Origin: Chitinivibrionales bacterium
GTDB lineage: Bacteria; Fibrobacterota; Chitinivibrionia; Chitinivibrionales; WJKA01
DNA: 38,531 nt
Assembly (NCBI GenBank): GCA_014728215.1
Contig: WJLZ01000213.1
Location: 1 to 38,531, forward strand
Direction: 5' to 3'
A model generated the notes under the pieces. The model ran no database searches. It worked only from the letters and a program-made list of their open reading frames with translations, and had not been told where the DNA came from. Every line of letters starts with the position of its first letter. Within the stretch, counting starts at the first letter, position 1. Below are positions 10,037 to 38,531 of the stretch, one piece after another. A program made the translations under genes and the position numbers.

Positions 10037-10864
10037 ATGATTGATATTTATACCTATATAGATTTCAGGAAGCTTCTGAAAGATCTTTATGAGGAACATA
10101 AAAAGAAGCATCCTTTCTTTTCTTACCGCTACATTGCCCAGAAGGTCGGATTCAGTTCTGCGGGCTTTTTTACCAACATAATTCAGGGCAAAAGAAATAT
10201 ATCGTCGGAATATATATTTAAATTCGCTCAGCTTTTCAAATTCAACAAAGGGGAGACCGAATATTTCGAGCTCCTGGTAAATTTCGGGCAGGCCAAGAGT
10301 CACAGTCAGAAGAAATATTACTTCGAAAAGATTCTTGCCAATAAGAAATCGAAGATAACGATAACCGATGCACAGCATTATGAGTTTTACAACAAATGGT
10401 ATTACACTGCAATTCGCGAGCTTATCGATATTTTCCCGGTCAAGGCCAATTATGATGAGCTTGCGAAAATGGTTCATCCTCCGATTAAACCTGCAGAAGC
10501 AAAAAAGGCGGTGGAGTTCCTTGAGGCAATCGATTTTATCAAGCGTAATGCCGACGGTTATTTTGAGCAGACGGATAATTTTATTTCAACAGGATATGAA
10601 GCGAAGTCGGTTGCCATCACCAATTTTCTCATCAGTATGATAGATCTTGCCCGGTTCAATATCGAGCGGCTTCCACGGGAAAAACGGAGCATGTCTACCT
10701 TGACATTCAGTATATCCGAAGATGGGTATAATGCGATAATCGAGCGGTTGAAAAATATTCATCGTGAAATTCTTGAAATGGTGCGTGAAGACCGGAGCCA
10801 TAATAAGCAGGATCGAATATACCATGTTAACGTCCAGGTTTTTCCTCTTTCGAAAGTTGAATAG
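10037..10864 (+). CDS. TIGR02147 family protein (DUF4423, HTH-like N-terminus)
   Basis: The 275-residue product has the family signature start (YTYIDFRKLLKDLYEEHKK, then HPFFSYRYIAQKVGFSSAGF). The Phe-Ser-Tyr-Arg segment and the following helices (FTNIIQGKRNIS) resemble an XRE-type helix-turn-helix. A winged-helix-like middle (about 120-185) and the DUF4423 C-terminal part (SEDGYNAIIERL, ending IYHVNVQVFPLSK) follow. The family was defined from many paralogs in Fibrobacter succinogenes; its biochemical role is not established, and a transcription regulator is the likeliest reading. TAAAGG lies 9 bp before the ATG. A lipoprotein gene starts 12 bp after its stop, the same order as in the 20.5-kb module. 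Confidence 0.85.
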   Translation: MIDIYTYIDFRKLLKDLYEEHKKKHPFFSYRYIAQKVGFSSAGFFTNIIQGKRNISSEYIFKFAQLFKFNKGETEYFELLVNFGQAKSHSQKKYYFEKILANKKSKITITDAQHYEFYNKWYYTAIRELIDIFPVKANYDELAKMVHPPIKPAEAKKAVEFLEAIDFIKRNADGYFEQTDNFISTGYEAKSVAITNFLISMIDLARFNIERLPREKRSMSTLTFSISEDGYNAIIERLKNIHREILEMVREDRSHNKQDRIYHVNVQVFPLSKVE

Positions 10865-15343: not shown

Positions 15344-15505
15344 ATGGAGCTTAAAAAAGTCATTGCGGCCATCGCCTTGATTGCGCTGATACTGCTGCTG
15401 TCGCTGGTAAGGGCCGAGAATATAGCTGAAATGCCGATTCATGAAAATTCAGTACCATGCAAAACTGTTTCTCATTGGGAAAAAATCGGGGATGTTTTTA
15501 AATAA
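15344..15505 (+). CDS. Small secreted peptide precursor, 53 residues
   Basis: ATG at 15344 follows AAGGAGG (15333-15339) and opens 53 codons to TAA at 15503. The product has a basic start (MELKK), a hydrophobic core (VIAAIALIALILLLSL) and a signal-peptidase-like site (VRA|EN). This would leave a mature peptide of about 29 residues (ENIAEMPIHENSVPCKTV, then SHWEKIGDVFK) with a single Cys. It lies 28 bp upstream of the VIT/VWA gene and probably shares its mRNA. It may be a small envelope peptide, or a leader ORF that tunes expression of the large gene. Family not recognised. Confidence 0.5.
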   Translation: MELKKVIAAIALIALILLLSLVRAENIAEMPIHENSVPCKTVSHWEKIGDVFK

Positions 15506-15533
15506 CACACATACTTACTCTAAAGGAGGAATC

Positions 15534-17891
15534 ATGGTTTCATATAAAACCACTGTAACAGGGATGATAATGACACTTCTTTTCTGCTCGATTGCGCTTT
15601 TTGCAAAGGTCCCTTTGGACAGTTTAGGTGAAGGTACCTGTGTGGCATGGAAGCCGATATCGGCGGATACAGTCTCGGATACATCATTTGGTATTGGCGA
15701 TACGCTTTATCTGCCGAACGGAGAAATCTCAGTTAATGTGCCGGCTGATCAGCGTGAAGAGGTCACCATACCGTCGGTTGGAACGGAAGTCAGCATTATC
15801 TGTGGTGACGGCTTTGCCAATGGTAAGGTTACCCAGGTTTTTCGCAATCCTTTCGATCTTCCCATGGAGACCCAGTATGTTTTTCCTCTTCCCCACAATG
15901 GCGCTGTGCACGGCATGGATTTTCGTACGAGTACCGGTGTATTTCATGCAGATATACAGGAAAAGGAAGAAGCAAAGAAGCAATACGAGGAGGCAAAAAA
16001 AGAGGGCAAACAGGCAAGTCTCCTGCTTCAGTCGCAGGATAATATCTTTATCCAGAAACTCTGCAACATACTGCCCCATGACAGTGTGGAAGTGACGATC
16101 TATTTCAGCATGAGTTTGATCTATGATATGGGTACCTTCGAACTGGCTTTTCCAACGGTTGTAGGCCCACGGTACGATCCGGCGCCTCTGGCTAAGCAGC
16201 GTTCCAACCCGCTCTATGTTCCTCCCGGAACACGCAGCGGCAGCAGTCTTGATTTTACTATCCTTTTTATCACGCCCTATCAGATTGCCGATCTTGTCAG
16301 TCCGAATCATGACGTTACGGTGACTGAACAGGGAATCGATCAGATGACCCTGCCGACAGTCATGCTTGAAATGGACCGGCAGCTTCCTGAAGGATCGAAT
16401 ACCGTGCTGGTTCAAATGAATGATAAGGATGTGCTTCCCAATAGGGATATTGTACTCCGCTTCGGCAGAAAATCGCCGCATCGTGATGTAAGTGTTTTAA
16501 GTTACCATGACGGCAACAAAGGATATTTCGCCCTGCAGATTTATCCCGATTTACTCGATACCGCCTCTAAAAAGCCGCAGAATGTGGATCTGGTATTTGT
16601 TCTTGATGTTTCCGGATCTATGGGTGGGATTCCCCTTATGAAATTGAAAGAGATAATGAATGCCATGCTGGATAAAGCAACCCCGGGCGACCGTCTTTCG
16701 TTTTTAGCATTCAGTAACAGTACATCGAATTTCAACGAGACGCCGGTTGCGGCAACGCCGGAGAATATCGCAGCGGCGAGGCAATGGATAAGCAATCTTT
16801 ATGCAAGTGGCGGCACTCAGATGCTTTCCGGGGTACGGAAAGGATTGAGTGTTCCCCTCGAGCCTGGGCGAACCAGAATAATGACACTCATCACCGATGG
16901 ATTTATCGGAGGAATAAATGATATTTATGCTGAAATTGAGAATGATCCCAATGAAACGATTGCTTTTACTTTCGGTATCGGCAACTCGACCAACCGGGAA
17001 CTGATGGATCTGGCGGCGAATGCCGGTGAAGGCATTGCAACAATGGTATTACTCAATGATGATGTTAAACCGATTGTCGATGATTTCTGGACCCGGATTC
17101 GCATTCCTCAGCTCAAGAATATTTCAATCGATTGGGGTGGCGAAATTCCGACTGCCTTAACCCGGCAGAGTGTTGGTGATCTCTGGTATGGGCAACCGGT
17201 TCTCTTGTTCGGTATGTATCAGCAGGGCGGTCCCCGAACCATTATGCTCAATGCCGATAAAGACGGTGAAGCAGTCTCGGAGTCATATGATGTTAACTTT
17301 GTTTCCGACAACAGGACAATGGAGTGTGTTGCCCAGATGTGGGCTCGTCAGACAATAGAGAATCTTCGCAATGAACAGAGCGCTCTCTATAACGAACAGA
17401 ATAAAGATAAAATACTGGAGATCAGCCTTGCTTTCGGTGTCTTATGTGAATACACCGCATTCATTGCCGTTGCCGATTCGGTGGTAAATGAAAATGGTGA
17501 GTTGGTTTCAACCGAAACTCCTGCAGAAAATCCCGATGGAGTCGATTCCTCTATGGCGGGTTCCGAATCATGGGGACCGGGCAGTCTGGATGCTTCAGAG
17601 GCTATCAGTGTTTCAGGGACACCAAAAATTACGATAATGCCCCTGTCGCAGAACCTGATGCAGATTTATCTTGCATCCTTTACGCCCGAAGTCCTGGCCG
17701 GTAAAGCATGTATTTATGACGTCAAAGGAAGGCTTATCATGGAATGGTCGCTTGCTGAGCTTGCTGCAGCTAATTACAGATGGACATGGAATTTCACCGA
17801 TCGGGCAGGGAATCCGATAACCCGTGGATTTTTCGTGCTTGTTATAAGGACGCCGGAACTCGTTCTCAATCAACCAATAGCCTACAAATAG
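15534..17891 (+). CDS. Secreted VIT and VWA domain protein with C-terminal sorting-like tail
   Basis: A perfect AAAGGAGG before the ATG at 15534 fixes a 785-residue product. A signal peptide (IMTLLFCSIALFA) precedes a VIT domain (about 75-215; VTQVFRNPFDLPMETQYVFP, KEEAKKQYEEAKKEGKQASL). The VWA domain (about 350-520) has an intact metal-ion site: DVSGS at 358-362, a Thr near 428 in SGGTQM and Asp in LITDGF near 455. The last 90 residues (IYDVKGRLIMEW, AGNPITRGFFVLVI) resemble a FlgD/T9SS sorting fold. VIT plus VWA is the layout of inter-alpha-trypsin-inhibitor heavy chains and of many bacterial surface proteins; an extracellular adhesion or matrix role is likely. A damaged copy follows 15 bp downstream. 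Confidence 0.85.
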   Translation: MVSYKTTVTGMIMTLLFCSIALFAKVPLDSLGEGTCVAWKPISADTVSDTSFGIGDTLYLPNGEISVNVPADQREEVTIPSVGTEVSIICGDGFANGKVTQVFRNPFDLPMETQYVFPLPHNGAVHGMDFRTSTGVFHADIQEKEEAKKQYEEAKKEGKQASLLLQSQDNIFIQKLCNILPHDSVEVTIYFSMSLIYDMGTFELAFPTVVGPRYDPAPLAKQRSNPLYVPPGTRSGSSLDFTILFITPYQIADLVSPNHDVTVTEQGIDQMTLPTVMLEMDRQLPEGSNTVLVQMNDKDVLPNRDIVLRFGRKSPHRDVSVLSYHDGNKGYFALQIYPDLLDTASKKPQNVDLVFVLDVSGSMGGIPLMKLKEIMNAMLDKATPGDRLSFLAFSNSTSNFNETPVAATPENIAAARQWISNLYASGGTQMLSGVRKGLSVPLEPGRTRIMTLITDGFIGGINDIYAEIENDPNETIAFTFGIGNSTNRELMDLAANAGEGIATMVLLNDDVKPIVDDFWTRIRIPQLKNISIDWGGEIPTALTRQSVGDLWYGQPVLLFGMYQQGGPRTIMLNADKDGEAVSESYDVNFVSDNRTMECVAQMWARQTIENLRNEQSALYNEQNKDKILEISLAFGVLCEYTAFIAVADSVVNENGELVSTETPAENPDGVDSSMAGSESWGPGSLDASEAISVSGTPKITIMPLSQNLMQIYLASFTPEVLAGKACIYDVKGRLIMEWSLAELAAANYRWTWNFTDRAGNPITRGFFVLVIRTPELVLNQPIAYK

Positions 17892-17906
17892 TCAAGGATG
17901 TCGAAA

Positions 17907-19637
17907 ATGATAAAGATATTCACTCTACTGCTGATTTCTCTTCATGCCTCACTCTTTGCCCTCGGCGCGCTCTATGCGCGCCGCCCTCTCTCCAATACTC
18001 AGGGACAGCCGCTCTGGCTGACCCATTATGATGCCGAGGTGACGATTACTGATCAGATTGCGGTCACCCATGTTGATCACACCTTTAAGAACGAGTCGAG
18101 TAGTCGTCTTGAAGGTGTTTTTGTTTTCCCTCTTCCGGAAAACGCGGTGGTTACCGAATTGGCTCTGTGGATTAATGGTGAGCGGGTCATTGCCGATGTT
18201 ATGGAAAAGGATACGGCCCGGGCGGTGTATGAAAATATTGTTCGGCGGCAGATCGATCCCGCATTACTGGAATACATGGGAGGCAATGTGTTTAAGCTTT
18301 CCGTGTTTCCCATAGAGCCGGCCGGACATCTCATGAGTGAACGGCGTATTGAAATCACCTATGCGGAGCTTCTTCCCTATGAAAACAGTCAGGTTGAATA
18401 CCGCTTTTTCATGAAAACGGCAAATATGTCGTCAAAACCGGTCCAACGGGCCTCGCTTGCTGTCGACATGTCTGCAAAAAAGGATATTCTCTCCTGTTTG
18501 TCACCGAGCCATACTGAGGGAACCGGGCTGGGAATAACCCGGATAAACAGCAATGAATTCTCGATACTCTATGGTAATGAAAATACACAGGAGGAAAAGG
18601 ATTTTCGTATACATTATAACCTGAAGAATGATGCCTATGCATTAAATCAACTGACCTATGTACCTGATATGAATGATCCCATGTTTTTTGATAAGTCCGG
18701 TGACGACCCCTATTTCCTTCTGTGGGCCACGCCGCCGGATGAGATCACCCGGGCAGAAATTGTCAAAAAGAATATCGCTTTTATGGCTGATGTCCCTCTT
18801 TACATTTGGAATCGGCAACGATCTGGATGAGGCTTTTCTGAAGCGGCTCGCCTGGGAAAACAACGGCTTATATCGGAACATTAACTCTGATGATTCCATC
18901 GCAAGCATCATGGACCGGTTCATGACAAAGATTTCCTATCCCCTGATTGCCGGCATTCAAATTCATTACGAGGAGTTGGAGCCTTACGATCTTTTCCCAC
19001 GGATTTTGCCCAATTTATATGCGGGCGCGCAACTGAGTGTTCTGGGGCGCTATCGCAGTACCGGCGGCCATACTGTTACTTTCACCGGTCTCCAGGTGAC
19101 CAATGAAATTGTACTAACCGAAACGCTCGATTTTGGCAGGGGATCAAACAATCACCCCTTTGTGCCTCGCATGTGGGCATCGATGAAAATCGATCATCTG
19201 CTGGAAGAAATTGAGATGTACGGAGAACAGGATGAACTCGTGCGGAATGTGACCATGCTGGGCAAGAAATATAATATTGTCACCCCCTATACATCGATGC
19301 TTGTTGTCGATCCCGGTACGCCGGTGGTTGAGGATAAAACGGCTGTATTGCCCGAAGAGACAGCTCTTCGCATAACGCCGAATTCTTTTACGGATGCAAC
19401 AACAATCGAGTTTGCGATTCCGCGGCTGGATTCTCCCAGATCGGCAGTGCTGAAAATTTTCGATGCCCGAGGTAAGCTCGTAAAGACACTGCTCAACGAA
19501 ATAACCATGGGGGGAGTTTCTCGGTCTCATGGAACGGCACCGACAGGCATAACCGGATGCTTGGATCGGGATTTTATTTCGCTGTTCTCAATGTTGGTGC
19601 TGTCAAAAATATGGCGCGAATCAGGCTGGTGCAGTAG
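17907..19637 (+). pseudogene. VIT/VWA protein gene, broken by loss of the VWA core and by frameshifts
   Basis: From the ATG at 17907 the first frame encodes a signal peptide (IKIFTLLLISLHASLFA) and a complete VIT domain (VVTELALWINGERVIADVME, ARAVYENIVRRQIDP). It reaches the start of a VWA domain (KKNIAFMADV) near 18795 and then stops at 18830. The sequence resumes in another frame at SLFTFGIGNDLDEAFLKRLA, which in the intact paralog lies about 120 residues after DVSG. Thus roughly 350 bp, carrying the metal site, are missing. A second shift at a six-G run (19509-19514) moves the sorting-like tail (SFSVSWNGTDRHNRMLGSGF, ending IRLVQ) into a third frame, closed by TAG at 19635. The gene follows the intact paralog in the same operon. 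Confidence 0.8.
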
Positions 19638-20500: not shown

Positions 20501-21376
20501 ATGTCACTACCGAGCAAAACAAGACGCAGGCTTCCCCGGTTATACCGGTACATTGATTACCGGCAGTATCTCAGTGATCTTTTTGATGTGCTGCAAAGAG
20601 AGGACCCACGGTTTTCCTATCGGAATTTTGCCGGGCTGGCAGGATCTACCTCACCCAATTTTCTTCAATTGATCAAAAGCCGCAAGCTTAATATCAGTTC
20701 AAAGGCGATGGAATTTCTGGCACAAGAATTAGGCCTTACAGAAAGGGAGTTCGATTATTTTCAAACAATCGTTGCCTTTGATCATGCCAAAACCGCTGAT
20801 GAGAAGGATGCTTTTTTTCAGAAAATTCTTCGGACCCGGCGATACGAACCGATGAAACAGCTACGGAAAAAGCAGTATGATTATTTTTCACACTGGTACC
20901 TTCCGGTCATAAAGGAGCTTGTTGTATCTTCCGATTATCCTGGAGATCCATCATGGATTGGCAGGCGAATTGTGCCGGCGGTCAGTGAAAGCAGGGTTGT
21001 CAAAGGTATTACGCTGCTGGAATCACTGGGCATTATCGAAAAGGACCATTCCGGCACAAAATGGGTTGCGGTCGATTCCGTTGTCAGAACATCTTCAGAG
21101 GTGATCTCGCTGGCAATTACCAGGTATCATAAATCGGTCATTGCCCTTGGAAGAGACGCTATTGAGCGGTTTAGCGCCGGAGAACGGGATATTCGCTCAG
21201 CGACCCTCGGACTCACCGCTGAAGGGTATCGGGAAGTCAAAAAACGGATGGAATCATTCTGGGAAGAACTGCTTGCCTTTGCCGATACACAGGAAAAAAC
21301 AGAGCGGGTCTATCAGGTAAATATGCAAACGTTCCCCGTATCAAAAAGCCGGAGCAAGAGGAAAGGGAAAGCATGA
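20501..21376 (+). CDS. TIGR02147 family protein (DUF4423), second copy
   Basis: The 291-residue product follows the first copy in layout: YIDYRQYLSDLFDVLQRE, then PRFSYRNFAGLAGSTSPNFL and LIKSRKLNISSKAMEFLAQE in the HTH-like part. A winged-helix-like middle and a DUF4423 end (LTAEGYREVKKRMESF, then RVYQVNMQTFPVSK) follow. The two copies diverge strongly in sequence, so they are old paralogs, not a recent duplication. No good ribosome site is seen before the ATG at 20501; translation may rely on an A/T-rich leader. Its TGA overlaps the ATG of the next lipoprotein gene (ATGA), so the two are translationally coupled. Role unknown; a regulator tied to the cognate lipoprotein is inferred. Confidence 0.85.
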   Translation: MSLPSKTRRRLPRLYRYIDYRQYLSDLFDVLQREDPRFSYRNFAGLAGSTSPNFLQLIKSRKLNISSKAMEFLAQELGLTEREFDYFQTIVAFDHAKTADEKDAFFQKILRTRRYEPMKQLRKKQYDYFSHWYLPVIKELVVSSDYPGDPSWIGRRIVPAVSESRVVKGITLLESLGIIEKDHSGTKWVAVDSVVRTSSEVISLAITRYHKSVIALGRDAIERFSAGERDIRSATLGLTAEGYREVKKRMESFWEELLAFADTQEKTERVYQVNMQTFPVSKSRSKRKGKA

Positions 21377-27312: not shown

Positions 27313-29745
27313 ATGAAAAAAGCCATTCTTTTCACCAATGCGATCTGTTGCTTTTTTGTTGGTGCACATGCAATCGGAATGCAGCATGGATTGTTTCGAA
27401 GCCAGTCCACCCAGGGAGCGCCCTGGCAGGGAACTGCAACCATTGTCAACGAACAGTATCATATCACGGTCCATGCGGACTATCTGGACGTGGAACTGGC
27501 CTGGACGATTGAAGTTGGAGGAAACGAGCCCGACTCTTTCAAAAACGCACTGGAGATTGTGGGAAATCTTAACCTGGAAGACAAATCGGTTGTGGTGGGA
27601 ATGGTCACCTGGTACAAGGACATGATACTCAAGGCAAAGCTTAAAACCAATGACGTCGCCAGGGAGCAGTATGAGAATGTCGTGCAGCGAAGCTCGGATG
27701 TGCCGCCTCCGCCCCGTGATCCCGTGCTGCTGGAGTGGATCTGGGATGACAACTACGACATCTCAATATTCCCCGTGACATTCGGCCAGACCAGAAGGGT
27801 GCGTATTCGCTACCTCATTCCTGCTTACTGCAGCAATGGAGTGAACAAAATCGCCTATCCCCATGCGTTTACCGATCATGCGCAGGTTTTGATCAGGAAA
27901 GGCCCCGGAGTCGATTCCTATCGGGTGGAGACACCTTCGGCTCAGAACATTTTCGAAAACCGTTTGTACGAATCACTCTCCGGCGCCGATTATAATTTTG
28001 AGGCTCACGGCCTCAGGCACGAAAAGAGAATTTCGCACATTATACCAATTCTTGCCCAGGCGCACGAAGGGTCACTATTCTATGAGGGAGATTTTTCCAC
28101 CTCAAAATTCAGCGGACAAATGCTTCATGTCACTACAATGAGCGGCCAGGAGGCATTGAAGAAGAGCATTATCGGCCATGACTATGTGATTTTGTGGCGA
28201 TGGAACCATCCTCAGATACTGGAAAAGTACGCGCGTCAAATTGTGGAGCAGTCCACGCTCCTTCAGGAGTTTCTCGAAAACCTTGATGCGGCGCACATGA
28301 GAGCCGCGTTGATTATCGACAAAGAGGGGGGCGAGCGGATTACCTTCTCTCTCGACACAAAAGGAGGCCGTGAATATAACAGGATGATCGCCTGGCTTAC
28401 CGAACTGAGCAGACGGGAAATCGTTGATCCGCCCATGAGAGATACCCCGCGCACACAGGACATTCCCTTTGATATCCAGCAGGCCTTTCAGGAGTTTCAG
28501 AATGCCTTGAAAGCTGCACAAGAGTTGTTTGACACACAACGCACTTCACTCAAACACTTGTTGATTCTCTGCGCCGGCCCCCGACTTGTCACCAGCTCTA
28601 TTGCAGATCAGACAGTGGAGTGGGACGGGCAGATCGATGTGAGCATGCTGGAATCCTCTGTTTTCAGCAACGGCTCCCCGGCCCCGGATCCCGGATTGTC
28701 CACACATCGAGCCTATTGGCCCGGTGTCAATATGAAGCAGTTTCTGCACACGCACCGCGCAGACATTCAGGTCTTTGCCATGGTGGGCAACGGTGTCGAC
28801 ACGAACCGGATCGCCGTAATTGCGGAATCAGAGGGTAGTTCCTACTGTCAGCCTGTCGGCTGCCGTCAGATGCACCTCTACTCAAACCGTCCGATGAATA
28901 ACCAGATACAATGGAGTGTGTATCGAGGAGACGATTTGATTGCAGAATATACGGAAACACCGCAGATCGTGCCCATGGATGACGGCATGCAATATGCACG
29001 GCTTATCGGCTCTTCGCCGCACCTCACGCCCCTTGCTCCGGTCATGCCCTCTTCCATGGCTTCAACGCTCGGATTTGTCGATGAAAAATATTCGCTGGTG
29101 GCTCTGGAAGAGGACGCACTTCCCCCCTCTGTTGTCCGCCGTCTCAGAGACAACGGAGTGCCGCTTCTGAACAGCGCGGATATTTTTCCTGCCGCCGACC
29201 AGCGTGCGGACATTCCTGTCGCGGAATGGCTTTATGTCAACCCGCCCGAACCGATGACGGAGTATGTGTGCGGATTGAATAGAGAGATAATACCAGTTCC
29301 CCTTGGCGCTCCCGTGATGTGGGCGCCCGAGGACGTTGACATATTCGTAGTGCCGGATATGCAGCCCGCTCCGGCCCGGATCGCTCCGCCGCAGGCACCG
29401 ATAATGTATGCTGTCGATCCCGAAGCCTATGTCGACTACGAGTCCGCACTTTTTGCCGCACCTCCGGCCGCTCACGTGCAAACAGCCGGAGGCTTTGAGT
29501 GCTTTATCATCAATAGCAGTCTCGTAATCGAGTCCGGTGCATTATCTTCCGGTACAAAAACTGATTTACAAATAGTCCTCTACGATCTCTCGGGACGTGT
29601 TGTGCGCCGATGGAGCTTTGCCGCGAGTTCGTCACGGAACCGGCTGATCGTTCCGCTTGAGAACACAGTGCTCGGTCGGGGCACTTATATTTGTCGCATT
29701 ACAGGTGCGGACAAGCCGATGAGCCGAAGGTTCGTTACCAGGTAG
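27313..29745 (+). CDS. Secreted VIT-domain protein with T9SS-like tail; VWA-like region without metal site
   Basis: AAGGAG 8 bp before the ATG supports this 810-residue product. A signal peptide (AILFTNAICCFFVGAHA) is followed by a VIT-like domain (about 45-170; VELAWTIEVGGNEPDSFKNA, NDVAREQYENVVQRSSDVPP, YDISIFPVTFGQTRRVRIRY). Between about 290 and 500 lies a region at the VWA position (MRAALIIDKEGGERITFSLD, SLKHLLILCAGP, VFAMVGNGVDTNRIAVIAES) in which the DxSxS metal-site motif is absent. A Pro-rich spacer (PDMQPAPARIAPPQAPI) leads to a type A sorting-like tail (LQIVLYDLSGRVVRRW, LGRGTYICRIT). It is flanked on both sides by decayed DNA, and its codon use appears more GC-rich than that of neighbouring genes. 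Confidence 0.75.
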   Translation: MKKAILFTNAICCFFVGAHAIGMQHGLFRSQSTQGAPWQGTATIVNEQYHITVHADYLDVELAWTIEVGGNEPDSFKNALEIVGNLNLEDKSVVVGMVTWYKDMILKAKLKTNDVAREQYENVVQRSSDVPPPPRDPVLLEWIWDDNYDISIFPVTFGQTRRVRIRYLIPAYCSNGVNKIAYPHAFTDHAQVLIRKGPGVDSYRVETPSAQNIFENRLYESLSGADYNFEAHGLRHEKRISHIIPILAQAHEGSLFYEGDFSTSKFSGQMLHVTTMSGQEALKKSIIGHDYVILWRWNHPQILEKYARQIVEQSTLLQEFLENLDAAHMRAALIIDKEGGERITFSLDTKGGREYNRMIAWLTELSRREIVDPPMRDTPRTQDIPFDIQQAFQEFQNALKAAQELFDTQRTSLKHLLILCAGPRLVTSSIADQTVEWDGQIDVSMLESSVFSNGSPAPDPGLSTHRAYWPGVNMKQFLHTHRADIQVFAMVGNGVDTNRIAVIAESEGSSYCQPVGCRQMHLYSNRPMNNQIQWSVYRGDDLIAEYTETPQIVPMDDGMQYARLIGSSPHLTPLAPVMPSSMASTLGFVDEKYSLVALEEDALPPSVVRRLRDNGVPLLNSADIFPAADQRADIPVAEWLYVNPPEPMTEYVCGLNREIIPVPLGAPVMWAPEDVDIFVVPDMQPAPARIAPPQAPIMYAVDPEAYVDYESALFAAPPAAHVQTAGGFECFIINSSLVIESGALSSGTKTDLQIVLYDLSGRVVRRWSFAASSSRNRLIVPLENTVLGRGTYICRITGADKPMSRRFVTR

Positions 29746-32578: not shown

Positions 32579-32593
32579 CGACAACTATTGTCG
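32579..32593. promoter_or_regulatory. Palindrome CGACA-N5-TGTCG, site 1
   Basis: GCGACAACTATTGTCGC (32578-32594) has 7-bp arms around CTA. It lies 56 bp before the ATG of the 32650 gene. A TATTTT further downstream could be a -10 element, which would place the palindrome at the -35. Sites of the same 15-bp core occur at 34771 and 36536. Confidence 0.55.
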
Positions 32594-32649
32594 CATTCTT
32601 CCTCTATTTTACCTGCGAGAAGCCATTTGAAATTTCGCAGGAAAATAGC

Positions 32650-33141
32650 ATGACGCTTAAAGGTATCCATAAAAAAATCAAATCTGCCCGGCAAACACTC
32701 AAAGAAATCAATCCTTCGATAGAATGCTCTATTGTTGCAATGTTCGGCACGATTCAGTTACCGTTAAGTGATTTGCATGCCGGTAATACAACACTTTTTT
32801 TCCATAAGGAGATTTTTGAACCGTCTCAGAGAATCAGCCGTTTCACTGCAAAGGCGCGGGATCTCGACAAGCTAGAAAGAGATAAGGAAAAACTGCAGAA
32901 GAGAAAGCTGATTGGGGAAAAAACGCGCAGAAAAATGGAAAAAATCGCAAAGATAACAGGGGAACAGAGGGCTTTTCTTGAACATGCATTGAATACAATC
33001 GAATTTACTGAGCCGGAACTTGAGCTCAGGTTTTATGATCTTGATATAGATGAAGTCCAGAGGCTGAAGGTGCATCCTGAAATTGCAGAGTTGAATTCTG
33101 AAAATGTATCACAAGCGAGTATACGGGTTGTAATAGGATAA
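32650..33141 (+). CDS. Hypothetical coiled-coil protein behind palindrome site 1
   Basis: The product is 163 residues, with AGGA before its ATG. Residues 1-60 include IHKKIKSARQTLKEINPSIE and CSIVAMFGTIQLPLSDLHAG. A highly charged helix (about 68-105; DLDKLERDKEKLQKRKLIGE, KTRRKMEKIA) is probably a coiled coil. The end (ELELRFYDLDIDEVQRLKV) is acidic. No family was recognised. Its promoter region contains the CGACA-N5-TGTCG palindrome shared with two other island genes, so it is probably co-regulated with them. A 19-codon ORF starts directly after its stop. Confidence 0.6.
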   Translation: MTLKGIHKKIKSARQTLKEINPSIECSIVAMFGTIQLPLSDLHAGNTTLFFHKEIFEPSQRISRFTAKARDLDKLERDKEKLQKRKLIGEKTRRKMEKIAKITGEQRAFLEHALNTIEFTEPELELRFYDLDIDEVQRLKVHPEIAELNSENVSQASIRVVIG

Positions 33142-33201
33142 ATGTTCTCAGAAATACAGCCCTGGCTATGCGAACAGCTTTATGAAAAATATGGTTTTTA
33201 A
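33142..33201 (+). other. 19-codon ORF directly after the coiled-coil gene (possible truncated gene)
   Basis: ATG at 33142 follows the TAA of the preceding gene without a gap. The product reads MFSEIQPWLCEQLYEKYGF and stops at 33199-33201, overlapping the end of the DUF2779 gene by 4 bp. It looks like the start of a normal cytoplasmic protein cut off by a rearrangement, or a very small partner protein. Confidence 0.3.
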
Positions 33202-34688
33202 TTACTCGATACAACATACAAAACCCTTAAAATCTCGACCATAGCCAGCGTATCCAGCTTGCAGTATTCCTGCAAAGCGGCATATACCTGTTTCCATTCT
33301 TTGCCGTCAATCTGATTGTCGTACCACAGCTCTGCCTGTAAACTCGCAGTCGTGCCTTCCTGGATTTCAAGCTCATTATACGACAATTTCGGCGCCAGGG
33401 CAGGGAGGACATACTTCAGGCTTGCACTGCCGTGCATTTTATGATGAGCATAATGGCCGTTTCGAAACGGCACGATGAGGTCCCGCATCCGGGGAATCAG
33501 GGACAGGAGCCATTTCCTGTATTTCGGGAAATCATCAGCCATCGATTGAATACACCTGATCTCGAATGACTGGTTGAATGCGACAATAGAGCCGGTATCA
33601 CCGAGATGCTTCTGCATTGCCTGGATAAGTCGTTCGCGCGGGTCAGAACGATCGGACGGAAGAAATTCGTGATGCGCGCAGGGGCCGCAGGGCTTTTTCT
33701 GGACATGGAGCGAAAATTGAAAGGGAATATTCTGCCACGGACGGGAGTTGTCAAACAGTGGGACCGCACAACTTACAGTTTCAAAGTCGAAATGGTAGAG
33801 GGGATAATCCAGTTTTTCAAGAAAAGAATGCAAACCTGCCTTGTTTATTACCGGCTTTTTACGCTTAACCGATTCGACAAAGGCCTGGTTCCGGTCGGAT
33901 AATAGAACTGTTGCAGGAATATCTTTCAGAAGTGTTATCCCCATTTTTTCGAGCTGTGCAATTGTTTTCTCGGCGCGGCAAAGCTCACCTATTGCATACT
34001 CTGGTCCCGGTTTATTGCAATGATCAGAATATGCGCAGATATAGGGCTGCGAACAGTGGGGGCCCGGTTCGATTGCCGGCTCATTCTTCTGCGCCATTAT
34101 ACGCAGAAATCCGGCTGCATTTTGCCTGACTTTTTTGAGATCTTCTTCAATTTCTTCTGTGATGTCTTCGGCGACTAAAAGCTCCCTGGGGACAATTTCG
34201 CCTTTGCGAACATACTCCCTGTTACAGTGCATGAGAAATGCTTTCCGGATTGGAAATCCTGCGCCTTCACAACAGTATTTCTGAACAGCAACATCCGGAT
34301 AATGCTTTTTCTTGTTGACCGAGTTGCTGCTTTTGACTTCGTACAGGTCCCACAGGTTCTTTTTTCCTCTCACCCGTTTGAAAATATCTATCCGGCACAG
34401 GATTTTATCATAATCGACGGTGGCTTCGAAGATAGCCGGAACGCCCTGCCCGGCAAGCTCGCCGGTTTTCCGGATCGCCGATGCCAGGTTATCAGATGGT
34501 TCATTGACAAGCACCCCACCGGGAAAGAGCGATTGTGCGTGCTCCCCGATCCGATGACCGATATCGAATATCCGCCGGGTAGCGGGATCGATTCCGGCTG
34601 CTTCATCCGGAAAATTAACCCCCATCCAGAGGATTTTCGGACATTGTATCCCCGCTACGTATCTGGATTTCGACAGACGATGTGACAT
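33198..34688 (-). CDS. DUF2779 nuclease: Cas4/RecB-like domain fused to a DEDD exonuclease
   Basis: The product is 496 residues. The N-terminal part has RecB-family nuclease motifs: GHRIGEHAQSLFPGG (His 50), RIDIF (Asp 101) and EVKSS (Glu 117, Lys 119). Cysteines at 16, 212, 218 and 224 (QCPKILW; CSQPYICAYSDHC) are placed as in Cas4/AddB iron-sulfur nucleases. The C-terminal DUF2779 part has DEDD exonuclease motifs: YHFDFET (301-303), IVAFNQSFEIRCI and EYCKLDT (475-480). The protein should degrade or trim DNA or RNA ends. GGAGGG precedes the ATG. A promoter (34749-34721) and palindrome site 2 (34771-34785) lie upstream, marking it as part of the same island. Confidence 0.8.
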   Translation of the reverse strand: MSHRLSKSRYVAGIQCPKILWMGVNFPDEAAGIDPATRRIFDIGHRIGEHAQSLFPGGVLVNEPSDNLASAIRKTGELAGQGVPAIFEATVDYDKILCRIDIFKRVRGKKNLWDLYEVKSSNSVNKKKHYPDVAVQKYCCEGAGFPIRKAFLMHCNREYVRKGEIVPRELLVAEDITEEIEEDLKKVRQNAAGFLRIMAQKNEPAIEPGPHCSQPYICAYSDHCNKPGPEYAIGELCRAEKTIAQLEKMGITLLKDIPATVLLSDRNQAFVESVKRKKPVINKAGLHSFLEKLDYPLYHFDFETVSCAVPLFDNSRPWQNIPFQFSLHVQKKPCGPCAHHEFLPSDRSDPRERLIQAMQKHLGDTGSIVAFNQSFEIRCIQSMADDFPKYRKWLLSLIPRMRDLIVPFRNGHYAHHKMHGSASLKYVLPALAPKLSYNELEIQEGTTASLQAELWYDNQIDGKEWKQVYAALQEYCKLDTLAMVEILRVLYVVSSN

Positions 34689-34720
34689 GAATCCCTCCTT
34701 GTAATAAATAGCCTGGCTTT

Positions 34721-34749
34721 ATTATACCGCTCCTGTTCGATTTTCTTAA
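34721..34749 (-). promoter_or_regulatory. Candidate promoter of the DUF2779 gene
   Basis: On the minus strand TTAAGA (34749-34744), a 17-bp spacer and TATAAT (34726-34721) lie 33 bp upstream of the ATG. The palindrome at 34771-34785 is 21 bp further upstream, a position suited to an activator or to a distal operator. Confidence 0.45.
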
Positions 34750-34770
34750 AAGAAATCTACTGTTTCTTTG

Positions 34771-34785
34771 CGACAATAATTGTCG
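34771..34785. promoter_or_regulatory. Palindrome CGACA-N5-TGTCG, site 2
   Basis: CGACAATAATTGTCG is perfectly symmetric, with 7-bp arms around a central A. It lies between the divergent DUF2779 gene and the nuclease pair at 35008 and could serve either. The 15-bp core has the same length as in sites 1 and 3. Confidence 0.55.
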
Positions 34786-35007
34786 TGTTGGGATAATATA
34801 TTTTACCTGTATACAAATAGGGAAAAAAGGCTGGTTTGCCGAACCCATAGAATTAGCAAAAAATGACACTTCTGTCGGAACAGGGGTTTATTATAGAATT
34901 TATGTCATGCTACAAGATTTAGAAGTATTCTCTATACTATCGCGTGAAGGACCTAAAATGAGTAAAACTGCTGTTGGTATTTGAAATTTTAAAAAGGAAA
35001 GGAAAAT

Positions 35008-35739
35008 ATGTACAAGGCGATTGTAAATGGAAAGGTTCGTAATAATTTTTCGTTTTTTGAAGAGGGGAAAAGCTGGCGGACGTTTTATAAAGAAAGAGAG
35101 GATTTCCTGACAGCCGCCATAATATCTCGTTTGCTCTATCTGCCATCTGAAGTGGTATGGCGAATAATCAAATCCAATATGAGCAATAAAGCTTCTTCAT
35201 TTTTGCCTGTACACCCGGGCAAGATAGATGATTATCAATTCTGGCCTCGTTATTGGTTGGGTGGAAACTATGTTGAACCGGATTGTGTTATCCATTTTGA
35301 AAATGTGGCGATTATTATCGAAGCCAAATTATCAGATTCTTCAATGAATCAAAGCTCGGATCAACTGGTTAGAGAATACAATGCTTATATCGAAAACAGA
35401 GCGAGAGAGGAACAAAGGCCTGTGCTTATTCTGGCAGTTGGCGGTTTAGATTCAGACAGAGAACAGGAAATTGATGAATTGATTGGAGCTGTTAATGAAA
35501 ACCTCAGGGCCAAAGGTCGTAATGATTTTCTGGTACATGCATTACCATGGAAAACCCTGAGAGATTCACTTAATAATTTGCCGGTTCCTGACGAAGATGA
35601 AAAACGTTTTTTAATAGAAGATATTAAAGAAATATTTGATTTTCATGATATTAATTTGCTGGCTGATATTTCTTGTGTAGTAAACTTTTGTAAAAAAATA
35701 TCAATTGATTTATCCGTACTTTCACTAATGAGAGGGTAA
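35008..35739 (+). CDS. PD-(D/E)XK nuclease-like protein
   Basis: The product is 243 residues; AAAGGAAAGG precedes the ATG. A first helix with Glu (KEREDFLTAAIISRLLYLP, Glu 29/31) is followed by the core motif: Asp 92 in EPDCVIHFENV, then EAK (Glu 105, Lys 107) in VAIIIEAKL, and Gln 119 in SSDQLVREY. These are the metal-binding and catalytic residues of PD-(D/E)XK nucleases, and all are present. The remainder (RPVLILAVGGLDSDREQEID) completes the alpha/beta fold. It is the first gene of a pair; the next ATG follows after 4 bp. Such nucleases are common in phage-defence islands, but no named system was matched. Confidence 0.65.
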   Translation: MYKAIVNGKVRNNFSFFEEGKSWRTFYKEREDFLTAAIISRLLYLPSEVVWRIIKSNMSNKASSFLPVHPGKIDDYQFWPRYWLGGNYVEPDCVIHFENVAIIIEAKLSDSSMNQSSDQLVREYNAYIENRAREEQRPVLILAVGGLDSDREQEIDELIGAVNENLRAKGRNDFLVHALPWKTLRDSLNNLPVPDEDEKRFLIEDIKEIFDFHDINLLADISCVVNFCKKISIDLSVLSLMRG

Positions 35740-35743
35740 TGCT

Positions 35744-36385
35744 ATGACTTTTGAAGAAGAAATTAAATATTCACTTATTGAAATACGCAAAGCATACAGG
35801 GCTCTTGCGGTATATCATCGTTTCTGTCTGGATTTGTGCAAAAAAATTGATACCATGTTGAATACTATTATAACAACAGGCATGACAAATTATATGTGGG
35901 ATTCCAATGTCGGCAAACCACCCCAGAGTGGGGACAATCTTCATAAATCAAAAGCCGTGGCATTTTTGCCGCTTTGGGATTTTGTTCGTCTGCTCTTGCC
36001 GGAAAAAACAGATCGAAATTATCCCATTATTGAAAAAAATGATTGGTTATTTGTTATGAGATTATCCAGCGATACCGGTTTTGAAGGTGACATGAATAAG
36101 GACGTTAATGTCGATTTGCTTAAAGATCCTGAAGAATGTGAAAGCACACTGAAATTGTATATTTATTATGCTAATGAAACCGTTCAATGTGATTGGAAAA
36201 GATTGTTTTCGCATAATGAATGGCCGAAAACAGGAGTGAAAACGTTTGTAAAACAAGCCCCAGAAATTTTGGCATATTCTGAAAAATACCACCTTAGTGA
36301 ATTAACCGACGACAGCCGGATTAAAATTAAAGTGTCTGAGTTTTTAAAAGGGGCTAAAAGAGAATTGAACGTTGTTTTTGGATAA
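35744..36385 (+). CDS. Hypothetical partner of the PD-(D/E)XK protein
   Basis: The product is 213 residues. It starts 4 bp after the nuclease stop, with AGAGGG 8 bp before the ATG, so the two are almost certainly co-translated. The N-terminal helix (IKYSLIEIRKAYRALAVYHR) contains an amphipathic segment. The rest is mixed alpha/beta (FLPLWDFVRLLLPEKTDRNY, DWLFVMRLSSDTGFEGDM, TLKLYIYYANETVQCDWKRL). No signal peptide, membrane segment or enzyme motif is seen. It may be a specificity, inhibitor or sensor subunit of the nuclease. Family not recognised. Confidence 0.6.
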   Translation: MTFEEEIKYSLIEIRKAYRALAVYHRFCLDLCKKIDTMLNTIITTGMTNYMWDSNVGKPPQSGDNLHKSKAVAFLPLWDFVRLLLPEKTDRNYPIIEKNDWLFVMRLSSDTGFEGDMNKDVNVDLLKDPEECESTLKLYIYYANETVQCDWKRLFSHNEWPKTGVKTFVKQAPEILAYSEKYHLSELTDDSRIKIKVSEFLKGAKRELNVVFG

Positions 36386-36535
36386 TTTTCAATAAGGCGA
36401 ACTGAGGATCTAAACTCAATGCTGGGAAAGTTATAAGAAAGTAATTCAATGCTGAAAATTTTGGTGCATTAAATCCGGAAAGCAGCAATTGAGGTAATAA
36501 CTTCGCCCCACGTTTTTAATATATTCTAATAGTGA

Positions 36536-36550
36536 CGACACTTTTTGTCG
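36536..36550. promoter_or_regulatory. Palindrome CGACA-N5-TGTCG, site 3
   Basis: CGACA (36536-36540), CTTTT and TGTCG (36546-36550) keep the 15-bp length of the other two sites, though only the outer 5 bp of each arm match. It lies 132 bp before the PcfJ-like gene. TATATT at 36562-36567 is a possible -10 element, placing the palindrome around the -35. The rest of the 297-bp gap (36386-36682) holds a short direct repeat, TCAATGCTG (36417 and 36447), and nothing else recognised. Confidence 0.45.
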
Positions 36551-36682
36551 CCAATAATTTTTATATTCTCCATACAGGTACACTTTATAGCCAGAGCATA
36601 TTCGCGTGCGACTCAACGTCACGTTTCTGAATATAATTAATATGGCTAAATTAACATATTCAACTACGCGGCCTGAAAAAAT

Positions 36683-37948
36683 ATGTGCAAATGTCTTTGT
36701 AAAAACAATCAACTAAAGGCCTCTTTTACAATTTTTGAAAAAAGAGATACGATATACAGACTATCATCATGGGAGGCTGGACTTGCAATCGAACAGTTTA
36801 ACAAAAATATTGGATACTGGTCACTTTATACGGGTAATGCCGATTATCTTCTGAAAAATGCAGAGTTTGATATGGAAAATACAATTGTTTTCTCAAAGAT
36901 AATAAACACCATACCAATCCATTTTCAGAGTTGTGCAAGCCGGGCTACTTTTCTGAGGTTCACCTTATTAATGATTATGCGAAGGGCAGCGGGTTTCTTT
37001 GATATTATGAAAGATAATCCTGCTCTGGCGCTATTGCTGGCTTACAAGGTGGCCCAAAAGGTAATAACCATCGATACTGCGGCCAATCTTGTTTGGCGGA
37101 AGCGCCATGAATTACTAAATGCGATTAATGGTTCCTGTTCAGAGGCCGAGGTAAGAGCACTTGGAAGGATTTCTTTCAATACATTGAAAATTGAAAACCT
37201 TTTATGGCTTAATCTTTTTGTACAGCAAAAAACAGGCTATTTAAAACACTTCAGCCAATACTTAACCGTTGATATGCCGATTGAAATGCTCTGGTTTGTT
37301 ATTGAATATCCCGGATTATTTGCGTGCCGGTTTTTTAGGCGGCTCCATAATAAAATGAAAAAGAAGCTTAAAGAAAATAGTATGTCTATATCAATTTTCT
37401 GGCAGACTCTTTTTAGCAAAAACATAGTGGATACGTATACTGAGGCTGTTTTTCTGGGAAAGGCCCTGCATATTTCAGATTATTCAAAGAATATTGAGCG
37501 AAAAAAAACACTAAAGAGCCTCCATAAACTTACTGACAAGTGGGGACGGTTACTTAAAAAATGGCACCGGCAGCGGATAATAGATTCTGTTAAGAAACAA
37601 GCGGAGAAATCCGCTTGCGATAATGATTTTCCGCCTTTTCCGTTGCCTGCAAATTTGCATGTGGAACCTATAACGACATTGCATGATTTATGTAAAGAAG
37701 GTGATGAAATGAATAAATGTATATCGTTTTATGAAGATGATATTTATTCAGGAAGCGTGTATTTCTATCGTGTACTCTTTCCTCATCGAGGCACGCTAAT
37801 CATTGACTTAACGAAGGAGTCCCCTGTAATAAGAGAATTTACAATTAGCACAAGCTGTTGTCCTTCTCCGGAATCACGCAGAGTCGTTGAAGAATGGATA
37901 AATTCCGGGTTATATTGGATGAAAGCCAGCAGTAATAATGGTAATTAA
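36683..37948 (+). CDS. PcfJ-like domain protein
   Basis: The product is 421 residues. About 310 residues are helical and carry basic patches (FRRLHNKMKKKLKENSMSI, KWGRLLKKWHRQRIIDSVKK). The C-terminal 110 residues follow the PcfJ-like pattern: VEPITTLHDLCKEGDEMNKC and ISFYEDDIYSGSVYFYRVLF, then GTLIIDLTKESPVIREFTI and a C-terminal helix (RRVVEEWINSGLYWM). PcfJ-like proteins occur on conjugative plasmids and in accessory islands, and their function is unsettled. The start at 36683 lacks a good ribosome site, so the true start may be internal. Palindrome site 3 lies upstream. The gene is convergent with the WYL regulator. Confidence 0.6.
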   Translation: MCKCLCKNNQLKASFTIFEKRDTIYRLSSWEAGLAIEQFNKNIGYWSLYTGNADYLLKNAEFDMENTIVFSKIINTIPIHFQSCASRATFLRFTLLMIMRRAAGFFDIMKDNPALALLLAYKVAQKVITIDTAANLVWRKRHELLNAINGSCSEAEVRALGRISFNTLKIENLLWLNLFVQQKTGYLKHFSQYLTVDMPIEMLWFVIEYPGLFACRFFRRLHNKMKKKLKENSMSISIFWQTLFSKNIVDTYTEAVFLGKALHISDYSKNIERKKTLKSLHKLTDKWGRLLKKWHRQRIIDSVKKQAEKSACDNDFPPFPLPANLHVEPITTLHDLCKEGDEMNKCISFYEDDIYSGSVYFYRVLFPHRGTLIIDLTKESPVIREFTISTSCCPSPESRRVVEEWINSGLYWMKASSNNGN

Positions 37949-37990: not shown

Positions 37991-38531
37991 TCAATATATT
38001 GAGACCATATGTCTTCCGAGAGCCCTTAGTTTATCCTTAAGCGCTTTTGGCTTTATAACCGTTGCACTCTCACTCCAGCCAAGCACCCACTGGATAAGCT
38101 CCCGGTCAACAGGAGCATCCATGGTGAGGATTACATCACCATCTTTATCGACACGCGTTTTCTGACTGGCATGAAACCGTCGTTCATTGAGGATCAGTTG
38201 GAAATAATAGGGAAATTTGATCATGATTTTCTGCGGTTTGGGCACGTCTTCATCTAAAATGCCGAAACTTTTCGAAAGACGGTTCTGGATCCGCCGGATC
38301 CTTTTTTCACCAACAGTAAACGTTTCATCGAGCAGTTCCGCAGAGACGATTCGACATAATTTAATGTAGTAATCACGGTTCTCATGCCTTTCCGAAATGC
38401 AGATAAAGTACAGCTCCTGTTTGAATAAGATGAGCTTGACCGGGCAGATTGTCCGCTCCACCGGATTGTCATGGTCCACGGTCCGGTATGTGATCCTGAG
38501 CTTTTGTCGCCCGGCAAGTGCAGTGCAGAGA
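37991..38531 (-). CDS. WYL-domain transcription regulator, C-terminal part (runs off the window)
   Basis: The minus-strand frame is open from the window edge to 37991. It reads LCTALAGRQKLRITYRTVDH, then RTICPVKLILFKQELYFICI and YYIKLCRIVSAELLDETFTV, the WYL-domain order with the signature altered to LYF. A WCX-like C-terminal extension follows (GDVILTMDAPVDRELIQWVL, GWSESATVIKP, LKDKLRALGRHMV). A GTG at 38479 is internal to the domain and not the start. The N-terminal helix-turn-helix should lie beyond 38531. WYL regulators of the BrxR/CapW type control defence islands through inverted-repeat operators. This one may bind the CGACA-N5-TGTCG sites nearby; that is inference. Confidence 0.75.
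   Translation of the reverse strand, partial: LCTALAGRQKLRITYRTVDHDNPVERTICPVKLILFKQELYFICISERHENRDYYIKLCRIVSAELLDETFTVGEKRIRRIQNRLSKSFGILDEDVPKPQKIMIKFPYYFQLILNERRFHASQKTRVDKDGDVILTMDAPVDRELIQWVLGWSESATVIKPKALKDKLRALGRHMVSIY

Follow-up and report, generated by a model that had tools for sequence, protein, structure and literature searches.

The three CGACA-N5-TGTCG palindromes in the DNA analysed here (the window: 38,531 nucleotides, contig C213 of a Chitinivibrionales genome) are likely to be WYL-boxes, the binding sites of a WYL regulator whose gene is split at the right end of the window. Each palindrome, together with a -10 element, would form an activator promoter of candidate defence genes. 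The best reading of the locus is a DriD-like WYL activator regulon, undescribed in the papers searched, that serves a defence island with a PDC-M15 pair, a DUF2779 nuclease, PcfJ proteins and an AAA ATPase.

The window holds three exact copies of the palindrome, at 32579-32593, 34771-34785 and 36536-36550, and no others. All three sites are intergenic, as the preliminary description of this DNA had claimed, and the small ORFs that overlie site 2 (84 aa) and site 3 (88 aa) are spurious antisense frames. None of 100 shuffled windows contained any match. When up to two mismatches were allowed, 17 palindromes were observed against 13.1 expected, which is the background level; the signal is therefore confined to the exact sites, and the loose matches were left out of the analysis. 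A pattern search of the whole source genome (G000; 5,002,880 bases in 229 contigs) found eight exact palindromes versus four for the reversed pattern. Four of the eight lie within long ORFs (contigs C9, C36, C84 and C141), and the other four, namely the three window sites and C59:41893-41907, are intergenic and all belong to a single island. For four copies inside these 13.4 kb, the Poisson probability is 9e-9. The repeat is real rather than a product of chance, and across the genome the palindromes are not spread at random, as every intergenic copy falls in the island. The features of the island are as follows.

32579..32593, + strand: putative WYL-box 1, CGACAACTATTGTCG (17 bp palindrome GCGACAACTATTGTCGC); exact match, intergenic, faces CC163.
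32605..32610, + strand: -10 element TATTTT, 11 nt past box 1.
32650..33141, + strand: CC163, coiled-coil protein of 163 aa.
33198..34688, - strand: DUF2779 protein, putative DNA nuclease (Pfam E 2.7e-41); N-terminal half weakly Cas4-like.
34754..34759, - strand: weaker -10 element TAGATT toward DUF2779, 11 nt off box 2; one mismatch to TATNTT.
34771..34785, + strand: putative WYL-box 2, CGACAATAATTGTCG, bidirectional; exact match.
34797..34802, + strand: -10 element TATATT toward the PDC-M15 pair.
35008..35739, + strand: PDC-M15A-like protein, PADLOC phage defence candidate (E 8e-37).
35744..36385, + strand: PDC-M15B-like protein, PADLOC phage defence candidate (E 3e-24).
36536..36550, + strand: putative WYL-box 3, CGACACTTTTTGTCG; exact match.
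36562..36567, + strand: -10 element TATATT, 11 nt past box 3.
36683..37948, + strand: PcfJ-like protein, paralogue of the PcfJ-like gene of C59 (Pfam E 1.1e-5).
37991..38531, - strand: C-terminal WYL+WCX part of the WYL regulator, truncated by the contig end.
G000:C59:41969-42451: N-terminal HTH part of the WYL regulator.
C59:41893-41907: putative WYL-box of the WYL gene itself.

The leader between the -10 element of box 2 and the start codon of PDC-M15A is unusually long (about 205 nt, 34803-35007) and holds two very short ORFs. Elsewhere in the window, three large neighbours (15441-17891, 17898-18830 and 27313-29745) are alike in their N-terminal parts and by eye resemble VIT/vWA-like surface proteins; the reading frame of the second breaks near 18830 and resumes in another frame from about 18673. 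Two similar regulators of about 280 aa (10037-10864 and 20501-21376) look by eye like members of the Fibrobacter TIGR02147 family.

The fourth intergenic palindrome lies 62 bp upstream of an ORF truncated by the end of contig C59. This ORF is the HTH half of the WYL regulator, and the WYL+WCX half stands at the right end of the window. The intact WYL gene of a related genome (G030) aligns to both halves with 50-52% identity and 6 bp between them, and the two halves cover positions 2-155 and 160-338 of the family profile. By this homology, contigs C59 and C213 are very probably adjacent, which would place the fourth site in the WYL gene's own promoter. On its other side, the site faces a divergent AAA ATPase-PcfJ operon.

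The palindromes are only one half of the regulatory unit. At all four intergenic sites of the source genome, TATWTT follows TGTCG after exactly 11 nt. This spacing, first noticed on these four sites, was then tested on 44 unique intergenic sites from the source and related genomes (the four included). TANNNT was found at +11 in 40 of 87 flanks, and at other offsets of the same set in 0-9 (mean 1.8); at +11 of coding sites it was found in 3 of 84 (P about 1e-39). In 168 Fibrobacterota genomes, the complete pattern CGACA-N5-TGTCG-N11-TANNTT was matched 190 times, versus five times for the reversed control, and 63 of these genomes contain it. When one mismatch was allowed in the full module, every match in the source genome lay in the island, including an additional one before a TPR-like gene of 411 aa on C59, and the control gave none. 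The consensus drawn from 99 unique non-coding promoters is R-CGACA-N5-TGTCG-Y, with a TATATT-like -10 element and a -10-proximal half-site that reads TTGTCG in 86%. No -35 box was visible in these 99 promoters, 94 of which have two or fewer of six matches at that position. The regulatory unit is thus a promoter module, in which the palindrome and a -10 element stand at fixed spacing, and this architecture favours activation, in place of the repressor action described for WYL regulators of defence. A copy of the palindrome (AGGCGACAATAATTGTCGC, or AGGCGACAATAATTGTCGCGG) is also conserved within a coding gene of 260 aa in many Fibrobacter (L098, L109, L111, L119, L135 and L147), where the -10 geometry is absent; this copy, being coding, was rejected as a member of the regulon.

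The regulator has the HTH, three-helix bundle, WYL and WCX architecture typical of DriD. Because of the split between contigs, the structure was predicted for a Fibrobacter homologue (mean pLDDT 74.7) and not for the window protein; the closest match to the predicted fold is DriD (E 2e-14), followed by PafBC, CapW and BrxR. Among 14 WYL proteins taken from motif-scan loci, most of them with the module in their own promoter, R42 and R46 are the only invariant residues of the HTH domain. They align to R46 and R50 of PafB, which are essential in vivo, their loss being equivalent to deletion of pafBC (PMC6789036). The K/R and R of the ssDNA-binding loop are retained in the Fibrobacterota WYL proteins; the first arginine of this pair is a lysine in the window protein and a glycine in Chryseobacterium, which counts against the proposed reading.

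DriD of Caulobacter crescentus is an ssDNA-activated WYL activator of an SOS-independent DNA damage response and binds ATACGAC-N7-GTCGTAT, an operator whose complex has been solved structurally; its sites lie over a poor -35 and keep a constant distance from the -10 (PMC12340889). The core of this operator, CGAC-N7-GTCG, equals that of the island palindromes, and the position over a non-consensus -35, the constant distance from the -10 and the bidirectional promoter at the regulator locus are likewise shared; DriD is also the best structural match. When the published didA and driD promoters are aligned with N11 spacing, G-14, which the authors call conserved, and A-11 fall in register between the two. 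However, the outer ATA and TAT of DriD are reduced to R (-1) and Y (+15) in the 99 promoters, so that the full consensus is not present in the island module. The island -10 is a strong TATATT, identity to DriD is about 16%, and candidate defence genes take the place of didA, bapE, recJ and dnaG as targets.

Mycobacterial PafBC, likewise a WYL activator triggered by ssDNA, recognizes tTGTCRgtg followed after 8 nt by TannnT (PMC5656591), and thus shares with the module a TTGTCR half-site 11 nt upstream of TANNNT (as in the RecA-NDp promoter, with sigma adaptation) as well as the two recognition arginines. However, PafBC is a heterodimer that acts on a non-palindromic site and on more than 150 genes, whereas in the island one WYL gene and a true palindrome serve a handful of targets, and the second subunit is lacking. 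The predicted mode of action is that of DriD and PafBC, but because of the incomplete DriD consensus, the lack of a PafBC-type heterodimer and the putative nature of activation and ssDNA sensing, the regulon was filed under neither system. SiwR of Mycobacterium smegmatis, a homodimeric WYL activator that binds a palindrome between -35 and -10, also carries recognition-helix arginines at i and i+4 (PMC10693628), but its 19 bp palindrome is imperfect, with GGA at -26, and it controls one adjacent operon with dinB-like genes.

The WYL protein could instead be a repressor of the BrxR/CapW type, which would block RNA polymerase at the palindromes until a ligand frees it during phage infection; we consider this unlikely. 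The WYL phage-defence regulators described in the literature that we located are all repressors, with palindromic operators close to the regulator gene (PMC9122601, PMC9122588), a setting shared by the island; moreover, a palindrome over the -35 region is in a classical repressor position, and a box at the regulator gene would fit autorepression. However, the operator is placed downstream of the promoter for BrxR and overlaps the -10 for CapW (PMC9122601, PMC9122588), whereas boxes of the island type end 11 nt upstream of it in nearly all cases. A repressor would require neither the fixed spacing nor the missing -35, and the fold and recognition arginines are nearer to those of the activators DriD and PafB. 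Activation by the WYL protein is favoured because of this likeness to DriD and PafBC and the different operator position of the WYL defence repressors.

The distribution of the module links it to this WYL protein. It is present in 58 of 66 genomes with the WYL clade (defined by E below 1e-35) versus 5 of 102 others (P=4e-30); the remaining eight genomes have the clade and no exact module. The relative G040 has only a distant WYL protein (E 6e-15) and no AAA module, and all ten of its palindromes are coding. In G030, sites lie upstream of the WYL, AAA and CC163 genes (with one mismatch) and of a DUF2779 operon; many Fibrobacter have them upstream of the WYL and AAA genes, and several families of the phylum at AAA or WYL genes. 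AAA homologues were also found in places with no WYL gene or module, which, like the eight genomes, counts against the reading. A scan of GTDB genomes by the module alone, with no protein information, gave at least 118 stretches; the gene directly downstream encodes a WYL protein in 51 of the 118 matches listed, in Fibrobacter, Chryseobacterium, other Flavobacteriia and Duganella, many of the 51 being one orthologous Chryseobacterium promoter. In dozens of Chryseobacterium species (L194, L209, L211, L216 and others), a perfect module precedes the start of the orthologous WYL gene by 19-57 nt. By these genome comparisons, the regulon type is phylum-wide and partly cross-phylum. The earlier prediction that the genes share an operator controlled by the WYL regulator is thus supported: the same site recurs at homologous loci, and the idea outlived tests for random spread of the motif and for its absence upstream of orthologues. 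Single matches were also found before uvrB in Chengkuizengella (L287), ruvB in Psychrobacter (L244) and a DNA polymerase IV gene in Chitinophagales (L249). They may be due to chance or may mark further DNA damage regulons; in 257 Gb of sequence a 16-base pattern is matched by chance at a high rate, and these matches were therefore left out of the count.

It is quite improbable that another regulator or a special sigma factor binds the boxes and that the WYL gene is merely one of its targets. The source genome does encode a canonical LexA, but the lexA locus has no module and the box core is that of the DriD operator, by which an SOS/LexA reading was ruled out; the co-occurrence of module and WYL clade, and the WYL genes directly behind the module in several phyla, speak against any other such factor. 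A non-regulatory role, as terminator hairpins, cassette recombination sites or chance repeats, is the least credible: the palindromes are perfect inverted repeats able to form hairpins, and in Fibrobacter a few copies are found between convergent genes, but divergent genes flank sites 1 and 2 as well as the C59 site, no window site is followed by a T run, and the fixed -10 spacing, the excess over the control and the WYL link would be meaningless for terminators or recombination sites, which were ruled out.

In the activator mechanism that we propose, the WYL regulator, probably as a homodimer, would bind the WYL-boxes and read their TGTCG half-sites with its recognition-helix arginines. It would thereby cover the -35 position of a promoter that has no usable -35, and would recruit or adapt the housekeeping RNA polymerase once its WYL domain binds a ligand. 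To judge from the likeness to DriD, this ligand is probably ssDNA, most likely released by damage or phage attack. The activated regulator would turn on its own gene, the AAA ATPase-PcfJ operon and the TPR-like gene of C59, and also CC163, DUF2779, the PDC-M15 pair and the second PcfJ-like gene of the window.

These module-linked genes, of which the preliminary description had regarded the window members as unrelated, look like a defence arsenal, a role that is here assigned by annotation, as many of the cargo genes have no known function. The nearest defence relative of the AAA protein is IetA/IteA, far under the curated cut-off. A homologue of CC163 (33% identity) stands between the WYL and AAA genes in G030. 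DUF2779 recurs as a target: in G030, where it lies on another contig (L152); in two Fibrobacter, beside the AAA-WYL genes; and in Salinimicrobium. Other genes preceded by the module encode PLD-type and PD-(D/E)XK nucleases, Fic proteins, septin-like GTPases, a topoisomerase-A-like protein and DUF1232 proteins. A decayed second copy of the C59 AAA ATPase is seen at G000:C160:4822-4935, where a fragment of 38 residues, 79% identical to it, lies in a frame of 47 aa. None of the papers searched names both WYL and Fibrobacter, and those on WYL and Chryseobacterium were unrelated.

The 32-bp module by itself serves as a predictive promoter code that locates members of the regulon, together with their WYL regulators, in raw genomes of several phyla. 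It gives the little-known families CC163, the PcfJ-like proteins, PDC-M15, DUF2779 and the two-domain AAA ATPase a testable context, in which a single regulator would induce them upon DNA damage or phage attack. We give about an even chance to the reading that the module marks a widespread, undescribed WYL activator regulon responsive to ssDNA, in which every mobile cassette of candidate defence or DNA-processing genes brings along a compact CGACA-N5-TGTCG-N11-TATATT promoter of its own. If so, new cassettes would plug into a common alarm, and a distributed antiviral arsenal would be under positive, damage-triggered control, whereas the known WYL regulators of defence act by repression. The finding suggests that ssDNA-sensing activation of the DriD and PafBC type has an earlier origin and a broader range than the two DNA damage responses described so far, and that it commands defence genes as well.
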